Shown in pieces: positions 1,731 through 26,063 of a DNA stretch of 26,732 nt. This stretch comes from a virus. How positions within the stretch are numbered: the first letter of the stretch is position 1; every line of letters begins with the position of its first letter. A model generated the notes under the pieces. That model was not told the origin of the DNA, made no database searches, and saw only the letters and a program-made list of their open reading frames with translations. The stretch is from positions 1-26,732 of IMG/VR virus record IMGVR_UViG_3300009168_000100; one strand, written 5' to 3'. The position numbers and the translations under genes were made by a program.

Positions 1731-1865
1731 TTACCAGTCATCGCCGTCAAGATGCGTGCCGCGATGGTAGGGCGGATGGCTGCGACGCGGCGCGAACAGA
1801 CAGATCAGCAACACAACGATGATGCCGAGCAACACCAGCGGGGTGACCCGCTCGGCGACCGACAT
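1731..1865 (-). CDS. Small single-span membrane protein (44 aa)
   Basis: The protein has one hydrophobic helix at residues ~7-27 (VTPLVLLGIIVVLLICLF) followed by a polar, His-rich tail. ATG overlaps the stop of the gene before it (TGATG), so translation is probably coupled. It is the last gene before the late-operon terminator and the last of three tiny membrane proteins after the endolysin. A role in lysis timing or envelope modification is possible from position, but no family is recognised. Confidence 0.65.
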   Translation of the reverse strand: MSVAERVTPLVLLGIIVVLLICLFAPRRSHPPYHRGTHLDGDDW

Positions 1866-2152
1866 CAGTTCTCTCGTATGATGGCAGGCGCCGGCGGCAG
1901 TACCGCGCCGACCGCCGGGTAGTTGCTCTGGCCGTGCCCGATGATGCGCACCGCCGGAAGGCCAAACAGCAAGGCGACGATCAGATAGAGCACGATCAGT
2001 AGCACCACCAGCAAGTACAGCCGCTGCACATTCCAGTCGATGGCGTAGTCCATCCACTTCGCGAACATGACGATGACTGCACCAACCAGCACCAGGACCG
2101 CAGCGACGATGGCGACGTTGATGATGCCAAGCACGATGCCGCCGAGACTCAT
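1865..2152 (-). CDS. Two-span membrane protein, holin-like (95 aa)
   Basis: Two strong hydrophobic helices at residues ~3-30 and ~44-64 are separated by a short charged loop (AKWMDYAIDWNVQRL). A polar 30-residue C-terminus with Pro/Ala follows. ATG 2152 has an excellent ribosome site (GGGAGGT five nt upstream), which rules out the longer frame to 2266. Size, topology and place after the endolysin fit a second holin or antiholin. A more typical holin gene lies at 4897-5190, so this could be a regulator of it or unrelated. Confidence 0.72.
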   Translation of the reverse strand: MSLGGIVLGIINVAIVAAVLVLVGAVIVMFAKWMDYAIDWNVQRLYLLVVLLIVLYLIVALLFGLPAVRIIGHGQSNYPAVGAVLPPAPAIIREN

Positions 2153-2163
2153 GGGAACCTCCC

Positions 2164-2280
2164 TTAGCGCGAGAGCAGAACCGCCGCGATGATGGCGATG
2201 GCGAGCGCCAGGCCGAGCCACATGGCGGCACTCAGGATGCGGCGCCACGTCGGCACCACCTGCCACCGTCGATCAATCAC
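2164..2280 (-). CDS. Tiny single-span membrane protein (38 aa)
   Basis: GTG 2280 overlaps the endolysin stop as GTGA, and the frame runs 38 codons to TAA. It has a basic N-terminus (IDRRWQ, TWRR) then one hydrophobic helix, about residues 16-36 (AAMWLGLALAIAIIAAVLL). Coupling to the endolysin gene and the clear membrane pattern make it likely to be real despite its size. Its function is unknown; it forms a small lysis-linked set with the next two genes. Confidence 0.6.
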   Translation of the reverse strand: MIDRRWQVVPTWRRILSAAMWLGLALAIAIIAAVLLSR

Positions 2281-3888: not shown

Positions 3889-4233
3889 TCACCCAGGGCA
3901 GTCTGGTGGCGCCCACGCCGCGACCGACTTACTCGCCCTGAGATAGGCCGCGACGCCATTGGTGACGCCGGTGCGCGCGCGCTCCGGCTGGCCACGATCG
4001 TCCTTCATCCAGACCTCGAACATGTGGACGATGTGATTCTTGAGCGCCGTATCCAAAGCCTCGGACATGATGGTGCGGACTGTCTCTCGCATCGTGGGGT
4101 CAGCGCAAAGCACAGGAGTCGATTGGGCACTTGCCATCTCGAACCCAACATTCGGCAACTGATGGGCCGGGCAGCACGTCCCCAGCAGCAGCGCAAGCGC
4201 GCTGGCTACCGCCGCCTGCAGTGCAACCATCAT
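3889..4233 (-). CDS. Secreted or lipoprotein-like small protein (114 aa), possible outer spanin
   Basis: The N-terminus is a signal-like stretch (VALQAAVASALALLLGTCC). Two cysteines follow the hydrophobic core; LGTC departs from a standard lipobox, so lipidation is uncertain. The mature part has two more cysteines (C43 and near the C-terminus) and a helical middle (ETVRTIMSEALDTALKNHIV). ATG overlaps the stop of the upstream gene (TGATG). Between spanin-like coiled-coil membrane proteins and the endolysin, an outer-membrane lysis partner is a reasonable but unproven role. Confidence 0.62.
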   Translation of the reverse strand: MMVALQAAVASALALLLGTCCPAHQLPNVGFEMASAQSTPVLCADPTMRETVRTIMSEALDTALKNHIVHMFEVWMKDDRGQPERARTGVTNGVAAYLRASKSVAAWAPPDCPG

Positions 4234-23864: not shown

Positions 23865-25826
23865 TCAGGCGGTGTGGACGGGGCCGCCCCAGTCAGCGCT
23901 GGTGAGATACGCGACCGACTGCGTCCGGCCCCTCATCCAGTTGATGATTCGCTCGGCGCGAATCGCGACGGTGTTGGTCTGAAACATGCTGACCAGCGAC
24001 GTTGCGCCGGTCGGCGTGCCCGAGTTGTGCGCCGGCGCGTCCGACATTTCGAGCGATGCCTCGCGGCTGGCGTCGATCGCGATCTCGCCGTCGTCCGCCA
24101 CGAAGATGTCGGAGGTATTGACCAGGACGACGATGTTCATCGCCTTGGTGATGTAGTCGCTGGCGATCACCGGCATGCCGCTGAGTGTGCCGCCGGTCAT
24201 CGACATAGTGGGGAATTCCGATTGCCCCAGCGGGTTGGTCATCATCGCCAGCGCGACCGCGTTGTTCGATGACATGATCCAGACGCCGGACGAAACCGGG
24301 TTATTGGCCGCGGCGAACTTGGCGTAGAGCGAGCGGATATCCATGCGAATGTCGTCGGCATCGTCACCGGATGACACCACCGTGGCGGCGCCGTTGGTGA
24401 TCGAGGCTGGCGAGACACCCGCCACCGCCGTCTTCGCGGGATCGATGAAATCGATGTCAAGCCGCTCGCGCAACGCCGCTGCCAGACTGTCGCGCACGAT
24501 CAGGTCGGACTTGGGGTTGCTGAACCTAATGCTCTCATCCGTGAGCGCGCAGATGTTGGCCACTTTGGTCGGTGGCAGTGTCGTGCGCGCGAAGTTGAAC
24601 GAGGTGAGCGGCTTGGCCTTGCCCTCGCCGACCCAGTAGCCGGCGCCACCGCCGGTCTGCGTGACGATCGGCGTGTTGAACATCACCGAGCGCAACGCCG
24701 GCACGCCGCCGGCGCCGAAGCGACCGATGATCGTCTGCGGCCGCAGATACTCCAAAAACGCGGCGACCGCGCCGCTTTCCGTGCTGTACAGATTGGCCGC
24801 CCAGTTGCCGCTGATATTGGTGCCGGCCGGAACGTTGGCCTTGAACTCGGCGACGACCGCGCTGTCCGAGCCATACATTTCCGCCGCGATATCGCCGGCG
24901 GGTCGGAACACCTTCTGCGACAGCGCCAGGCATTTGACCTTCTGGGCAAACAACTGGCCGGGCTCCATCTTCGGCTGCGGCTTGACGATGATCGATCCGC
25001 CGCGCGCCGCAGTGCCATCATGCTGCGTCTCAGCCTTGATCACCGGCCTGGCCGCGAACGCCTTGGCCTGCTCGATCTTGCGCAGCCGCACCAGATCCTT
25101 GTCCAGTGCCTCGACCTCGCTCGACAGCGTATCGAATTCATCCTGCTCGCCCGCGTCCGAGGTCCGATCCTCGTCCAGGCTCTTCTGCATCACCGCTTCC
25201 ATGCGCGACGCGCTCGCGGATCGCTTGGCTTCTAAAGCTGTAATCTGTTCAGCAATGGTTTTCATGGCGCCCTCCAGGGCAGCAGACTTCGGTTGCGATG
25301 ATCCCGAGGCGCCGGGTGGGTTGAGATGAACGACACGACGCGGCTTTGTCTGGCCGGACGCGGCCCGCTGCGCAGTGTCGATCGATTTCACGGTGGCGAT
25401 AGAGGCTTCGGAGTTGGCCGGAATGGTCACGGCCGACAGCTCGAACCAATCCCATTTGATGAAACGGATGCCGTCGGTTTTTTCGATGCGCGCCGTCTCA
25501 GTCGCTTTGAACCCGATCGAGAGGCCTTGCACCAGCCCGGCTTTGATCAATCTCCATGCGCGATCGATCTCATCGGTCACGCCTTTGGCGATCTGGGCAA
25601 CGATCTCGATGCCATCCTTACCGACTTTGGCCTTCGTGACATGGCCGATCGGCTGCTTCGAGTCGTGCTGCCACAACAGCGGCAGCGGCAACTTGAACTG
25701 CGCGCCCATCGGCTCGACGATGTCCTCCAGCCGATCCGGCGTCGGCGTCGACGCCATGCCGGTGATGATGCGCGCGTCGTCGTCGACCGCTTTCAGGGTG
25801 AGAAGCGAGTAAGCTCGGTTCAACAT
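23865..25826 (-). CDS. HK97-type prohead protease fused to major capsid protein (653 aa)
   Basis: Residues ~15-150 are a U35-type protease: LLWQHD gives the likely catalytic His54, GLSIGF the likely Ser103, and FELSAVTIPANSEASI the conserved C-terminal strand. From residue 188 (MKTIAEQITALEAKR) comes a coiled-coil scaffold/delta segment, then an HK97-fold capsid (RSVMFNTPIVTQTGGGAGYW, VANICALTDESIRFSNPKSD, WIMSSNNAVALAMMTNPLGQ). The protease would cleave the delta segment during head maturation. ATG 25826 has no strong ribosome site. An internal ATG at 25265 has a perfect one, so capsid may also be made alone. Confidence 0.88.
   Translation of the reverse strand: MLNRAYSLLTLKAVDDDARIITGMASTPTPDRLEDIVEPMGAQFKLPLPLLWQHDSKQPIGHVTKAKVGKDGIEIVAQIAKGVTDEIDRAWRLIKAGLVQGLSIGFKATETARIEKTDGIRFIKWDWFELSAVTIPANSEASIATVKSIDTAQRAASGQTKPRRVVHLNPPGASGSSQPKSAALEGAMKTIAEQITALEAKRSASASRMEAVMQKSLDEDRTSDAGEQDEFDTLSSEVEALDKDLVRLRKIEQAKAFAARPVIKAETQHDGTAARGGSIIVKPQPKMEPGQLFAQKVKCLALSQKVFRPAGDIAAEMYGSDSAVVAEFKANVPAGTNISGNWAANLYSTESGAVAAFLEYLRPQTIIGRFGAGGVPALRSVMFNTPIVTQTGGGAGYWVGEGKAKPLTSFNFARTTLPPTKVANICALTDESIRFSNPKSDLIVRDSLAAALRERLDIDFIDPAKTAVAGVSPASITNGAATVVSSGDDADDIRMDIRSLYAKFAAANNPVSSGVWIMSSNNAVALAMMTNPLGQSEFPTMSMTGGTLSGMPVIASDYITKAMNIVVLVNTSDIFVADDGEIAIDASREASLEMSDAPAHNSGTPTGATSLVSMFQTNTVAIRAERIINWMRGRTQSVAYLTSADWGGPVHTA
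25263..25277 (-). promoter_or_regulatory. Internal ribosome site and start for a separate capsid protein
   Basis: GGAGG (25275-25271) lies 5 nt before an in-frame ATG at 25265, at the junction between the protease and the capsid delta segment. It would yield a 466-residue capsid precursor independent of the fusion and is stronger than the site of the fusion start. Confidence 0.65.
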
Positions 25827-25851
25827 GGCTGGAACTTTCGTGATGCGCTCC

Positions 25852-25880
25852 GTGTTGTCCTGCCACAGGCAAGGCAACAC
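25852..25880. repeat. Strong hairpin between micro-ORF and protease gene
   Basis: GTGTTGTCCTGCC and GGCAAGGCAACAC can form a 13-position stem (12 pairs, one G-U, one mismatch) around a 3-nt loop. On the plus strand it lies directly before the GGAGG site of the 34-codon micro-ORF; on the minus strand it is upstream of the protease start. No T-run follows on either side. Confidence 0.6.
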
Positions 25881-25895
25881 CGGAGGTGAACAGCG

Positions 25896-26000
25896 ATGGG
25901 AAACGACCCCAATAATCCGGGCGACGATCCGAAACCGAACCCGCAAAACCCTAATCCGGGAAAACCGAATCCCAATCAGCCGCCGCAACCACAGCGATAA
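25896..26000 (+). CDS. Antisense Pro/Asn-rich micro-ORF (34 aa)
   Basis: A plus-strand ORF opposite the late operon, in the terminase-capsid gap. CGGAGGTGA sits 6 nt before ATG 25896, the best ribosome site near this part of the window. The peptide (start MGNDPNNPGDDPKPNPQNP) is nearly all Pro, Asn, Gln, Gly, Asp and Lys, without hydrophobic residues, and so is probably unstructured. A strong hairpin lies just upstream of the ribosome site. Minor resemblance to short Asn/Pro-rich hypothetical proteins of Rhizobiales is from memory only; no promoter is visible. Confidence 0.55.
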   Translation: MGNDPNNPGDDPKPNPQNPNPGKPNPNQPPQPQR

Positions 26001-26027: not shown

Positions 26028-26063
26028 GTGAGCGGCCTTTGTCCCCCCCAGATGGCCGCTCAC
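26028..26063. repeat. Perfect 10-bp inverted repeat after terminase gene
   Basis: GTGAGCGGCC (26028-26037) and GGCCGCTCAC (26054-26063) flank a 16-nt loop containing seven C. It lies 11 nt past the terminase stop on the minus strand and 28 nt past the micro-ORF on the plus strand. No T-run follows in either direction, so a processing hairpin or bidirectional weak terminator is likelier than a classic one. Confidence 0.6.

Follow-up and report, generated by a model that had tools for sequence, protein, structure and literature searches.

A candidate stress-linked micropeptide unit between the terminase and capsid genes of phages

The window (the whole stretch of DNA analyzed, a viral record 26,732 bases long) contains a gap of ~248 bp with the gene for the large terminase subunit (TerL) on one side and a gene for a fused protease/major head protein on the other. 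The gap is occupied by a micro-ORF that runs antisense to both of these genes. The features of the gap and its flanks are as follows:

23865-25826, minus strand: flanking gene for a fused prohead protease/major capsid protein (PHROG 617; Pfam Peptidase_S78 and Phage_capsid)
25831-25856, plus strand: EcfG/ECF-type promoter-like motif GGAAC-N18-GTT (-35 at 25831-25835, -10 GTT at 25854-25856), conserved in copies
25852-25880, no strand assigned: inverted repeat reported earlier (fold z -2.3), overlapping the predicted -10 and start site
25882-25888, plus strand: Shine-Dalgarno sequence GGAGGTG, 7 nt before the ATG (GAGG/AGGTGA in nearly all copies)
25896-26000, plus strand: micro-ORF for a Pro/Asn-rich, presumably disordered peptide of 34 aa, with homologous peptides and coding selection
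26028-26063, plus strand: downstream hairpin with a C-rich loop (C7 at ~26043-26049), a conserved stem-loop (fold z -2.7) and putative terminator or possible seed loop
26075-26731, minus strand: flanking TerL gene, C-terminal part, running off the window (PHROGs 2699 and 9; Pfam TerL_nuclease)

The product of the micro-ORF is MGNDPNNPGDDPKPNPQNPNPGKPNPNQPPQPQR. It comprises 34 codons and has no hydrophobic residues after Met1, bearing out the description of a low-complexity frame without hydrophobics in the first-pass annotation. That annotation had also proposed a micro-ORF with a strong ribosome site in the terminase-capsid gap, and it had named the absence of a conserved frame and ribosome site in relatives as grounds for abandoning the proposal. 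In the homologues described below, the ATG, the frame and the ribosome site are all kept, and we regard the micro-ORF as real. Judged from the sequence, the earlier observation holds, and it understates the contents of the locus. The neighboring capsid gene has its own peculiarity: at 25824-25840, the window and one relative (L003) lack the stretch in which other relatives with the element have the capsid gene's Shine-Dalgarno sequence (plus-strand cctctcag), and for this reason the capsid ATG at 25826 is without an obvious ribosome site.

Viral contigs supplied close relatives of the capsid and terminase proteins, and every TerL-capsid junction among those fetched was read for the antisense peptide; further copies were found with a degenerate N-terminal pattern. 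The resulting family has 26 distinct peptides of 27-46 aa, encoded by 29 distinct coding sequences. Its consensus is MGNDPNxP...PNQPxQPPR, in which M1, G2, several prolines and the final arginine are invariant. The pN/pS of the family was ~0.16 (mean 0.046/0.282, 41 close pairs), a figure that describes a pattern and should not be taken as a formal test, the close pairs being mutually dependent. Variation is dominated by the third codon position (entropies of 0.44, 0.33 and 1.18 for the three positions), and the length differences among copies are all multiples of three. The synonymous bias outweighs the in-frame indels as an argument, because low complexity makes in-frame repeat changes easy. 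These are the marks of codon-level conservation that the first-pass annotation had suggested looking for, and at the level of sequence comparison they show that the family is under purifying selection and varies like a coding gene. A chance ORF without function might be suspected from its shortness and low complexity, and from the failure of Pfam and PHROGs to match the window's product to any family. Such an origin is scarcely credible in view of the synonymous bias and in-frame indels across 26 distinct peptides, the ribosome site, and the promoter motif and unrelated carriers presented below.

The micro-ORF forms the core of an insert of ~230 bp. Among 96 distinct TerL/capsid junctions from related phages, 28 were filled by this unit and 28 were empty (gap ≤30 bp). 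The empty junctions were mostly 14-16 bp long, which leaves room for just a stop codon and the ribosome site of the capsid gene, for example TGAAGGACTAACCATC-ATG. Because other gaps hold other small or large ORFs, we consider the TerL-capsid gap to be a cargo site. In the gaps of L013, L014, L024, L131 and L132, other small antisense ORFs were seen (MTKQDPIKQTGAYLDAHC..., MAKFDEGFADYLAGRFGDKG...), and no GGAAC motif was found there.

The unit is also present in three carriers that are unrelated at their packaging genes. One of these (L182) has a TerL and a protease that are clearly different from the window's. Another (L183) has the unit in antisense orientation between a DUF5681 protein and TerL, and its terminase is a Terminase_6 enzyme. 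In the third (L204), the unit neighbors a C5 methylase gene and is co-oriented with it and with the DUF5681 gene. Since unrelated phages keep all parts of the unit, and since one copy is in the sense orientation, the unit is better understood as cargo than as a cis-antisense regulator.

These observations recall phage morons, which are single genes, equipped with their own promoter and terminator, that have been inserted into gene pairs found side by side in related phages (PMC4378225). Like them, the unit consists of one coding region with its own promoter-like and terminator-like elements, located between genes that are adjacent in relatives; morons are often antisense to lytic genes, as the unit is to the TerL and capsid genes. 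It is unlike them in its extremely small, low-complexity product, its stress-type (EcfG) promoter-like motif and its conserved C-loop hairpin. It also departs from a usual, although not obligatory, moron trait, as its base composition is close to that of the window (G+C of 0.598 vs. 0.622). The idea of an independently expressed cargo (“moron”) peptide, raised in the first-pass annotation, is thus well supported by the discrete insertion, the empty sites, the coding selection and the unrelated carriers, and the unit's apparent promoter and terminator would lend it further support.

With regard to the promoter, the pattern G(G/C)AAC-N17/18-GTT is present in 26 of 30 copies, with the GTT located 34-42 nt before the ATG; the remaining four have a near match by eye. 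Among 90-nt stretches drawn at random from these loci, 0.85% had the pattern by chance. In the copies from unrelated phages, both promoter boxes are kept and the spacer sequence is different. The window's GGAAC-N18-GTT fits the published consensus of the alphaproteobacterial general-stress sigma factor EcfG, GGAAC-N16-CGTT or GGAAC-N17-20-GTT (PMC7083833, PMC6599016), and we assume that the host possesses this factor. Only one other GGAAC-N-GTT site occurs in the window, and its spacer is shorter; a sigma-70 scan returned only a weak site, where the ORF begins. Our limited search of the open-access literature turned up no phage gene described as controlled by EcfG. If the unit's promoter follows the geometry customary for this type, transcription would start near 25865.

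This start position bears on the inverted repeat, which had previously been described as a strong hairpin directly upstream of the micro-ORF. The structure does exist, as only 3 of 200 shuffles of 25840-25900 were equally stable. However, given a start near 25865, the repeat overlaps the -10 and the start site instead of being located in the leader; probably, it is only partly inside the transcript. It is strong in ~12 copies and absent from one clade (L144/L147/L148/L151). L061 and L123 retain it, although their stem sequence is different. Both the promoter-like motif and the C-loop hairpin downstream, which is better conserved than the repeat, had been overlooked.

The predicted start is also pertinent to an alternative in which the transcript would act as a cis-antisense repressor of the late operon, either that of the resident phage or that of superinfecting relatives. 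The transcript's position is complementary to the TerL-capsid mRNA in the 28 filled junctions, and the copy in L183 is antisense as well. There is a precedent in STnc6030 of prophage BTP1, a 786 nt antisense RNA that acts in superinfection exclusion (PMC7067206). The unit's predicted transcript resembles STnc6030 in being antisense to late structural genes, but the unit is a conserved coding gene and is found in the sense orientation, too. Such a role is made less likely by the copy in L204, which is co-oriented with its neighbors, and by selection that acts on codons. Moreover, transcription is predicted to begin past the ribosome site of the capsid gene, and the region of complementarity coincides with the insert, which the 28 empty junctions lack. 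An antisense regulator of the operon, which the first-pass annotation had entertained, is thus disfavored, and we deem it improbable.

Downstream of the ORF, 21 copies feature a C-rich run located in a loop that a strong stem closes. (For L144, the automatic procedure picked another C run; the proper hairpin was present on inspection.) An alignment of 17 hairpins shows five invariant loop cytosines, and the copies carry C5-C7 loops; that of the window exposes UCCCCCC. The outer parts of the stems have eight different sequences, all of which pair, i.e., the changes are compensating. Because the stems had been picked for pairing, a shuffle performed at each locus is a fair test of them, and it yielded p≤0.009 in each case. 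The tail past the hairpin contains 4.7/12 T residues on the plus strand vs. 2.1/12 on the minus strand. It is only moderately T-rich, which counts against the moron reading. The absence of the hairpin from eight copies (L136, L088, L097, L100, L109, L111, L123 and L127) does so as well. In those eight, the micro-ORF and TerL terminate at exactly the same place, and their convergent stop codons apparently overlap (CTAG). Two further ideas were set aside on inspection by eye: pairing of the C loop with the 5' leader, which is lost in copies whose leader has changed (L061, L123, L144), and an integron-cassette origin of the hairpin.

The earlier suggestion of an RNA element does not suit the upstream hairpin for which it was made, but it is possible for the downstream one, because the C-loop hairpin resembles that of the EcfG-dependent sRNA GsrN. 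In this Caulobacter sRNA, a loop with six cytosines in tandem is the acting element (PMC5869019). The unit shares with GsrN an EcfG-type promoter-like motif and a loop in which consecutive cytosines are exposed. It differs in being ~200 nt long, coding and phage-borne, in having its C loop in a 3' hairpin rather than a 5' loop, and in showing no sequence relation in Rfam, where a search with the unit matched no family. By analogy, the unit may work like GsrN, though we do not class it as a GsrN-type sRNA. Put as a full alternative, an EcfG-driven, dual-function RNA would base-pair via its C-rich loop with host mRNAs that have G-rich leaders, and the peptide would be a second product. The invariance of the C5 loop while the stems change, which extends to unrelated phages, speaks for such a riboregulator. 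The eight copies that keep promoter and peptide but have lost the hairpin speak against it, and the coding selection indicates that the peptide itself matters; on these grounds, we find this alternative possible but doubtful. We are equally tentative about a combined view, namely that a mobile phage unit taps the host stress response with a single RNA of ~200 nt that would give both the micropeptide and a GsrN-like C-loop riboregulator.

As for the peptide, all family members are very hydrophilic (GRAVY -2.1 to -2.7) and have a net charge near 0, and the 34-aa product is expected to be disordered. Because it is nearly uncharged, very hydrophilic and devoid of a hydrophobic core, it is less plausible as an enzyme than as a hydrophilin-like or linear-motif peptide. 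Hydrophilins are defined by a glycine content >6% and very high hydrophilicity. The peptide resembles hydrophilins and LEA-like stress proteins in its hydrophilicity, its expected disorder and its presumed induction by stress. It differs from them in being shorter and Pro/Asn-rich instead of Gly-rich; glycine ranges from 3.0 to 11.1% across the family, and many members fall below the threshold, which counts against a hydrophilin-like moron.

Homologous Asn/Pro-rich peptides, which the first-pass annotation had recommended seeking, were found in related and unrelated phages but not in the sampled Alphaproteobacteria genomes, where neither the family profile nor the N-terminal pattern had a match. 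The latter result counts against the moron reading. We judge the profile search to be working because the same profile recovers the known phage copies. A tblastn search of phage and plasmid collections with the peptide gave no match and was uninformative under the low-complexity filter. Among sequenced genomes, it is chiefly, though not exclusively, Alphaproteobacteria that have relatives of the capsid gene.

On balance, we lean toward the interpretation that the unit is a self-contained moron between TerL and the capsid gene, expressed under stress and yielding a disordered peptide useful to the host. Host RNA polymerase carrying the general-stress sigma factor EcfG would transcribe the unit into an RNA of ~200 nt (from ~25865 to ~26070), and this transcription would not depend on the late operon of the phage. 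Translation of this RNA would provide the 34-aa disordered, uncharged and extremely hydrophilic peptide, which presumably would benefit the stressed host cell, be it a lysogen or an infected cell, and hence the phage. Its most likely role would be that of a hydrophilin-like protectant, or of a short peptide with a linear motif that is recognized via its conserved ends. Those conserved ends, the in-frame indels and low pN/pS, the EcfG-type motif, the filled and empty junctions, the downstream hairpin with more T in its plus-strand tail, the unrelated carriers and the hydrophilicity together make the moron reading somewhat probable.

Annotation routinely misses micro-genes of <50 codons with low-complexity products. 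A cargo gene wired to the host's general-stress sigma factor would, if true, be a notable way to time the expression of phage cargo, and the locus suggests that phages may supply their hosts with a micropeptide or small RNA that is switched on by stress. The conserved C-loop hairpin makes it testable whether a stress small RNA that is central in bacteria has mimics in phages.

Short Gln/Gly-rich peptides that begin with MGNE were noted in two other phage sequences, L197 (micro-ORF at 4061, minus strand) and L234 (1995-2174); queries with such peptides returned no convincing bacterial homologue. The gene in L234 has a GGAAC-N18-GTT site and an ordinary T-rich terminator without a C loop. Possibly, the two belong to a wider phage class of hydrophilic peptides with stress promoters, and we count the L234 gene, which shares the promoter pattern, in favor of the moron reading. 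Near the far end of the window (1865-2266, minus strand) is a small membrane protein, MSLGGIVLGIINVAIV..., with no Pfam match; by eye, it resembles a protein of L182 (4416-4799, plus strand) that is sited between TerL and the protease gene.
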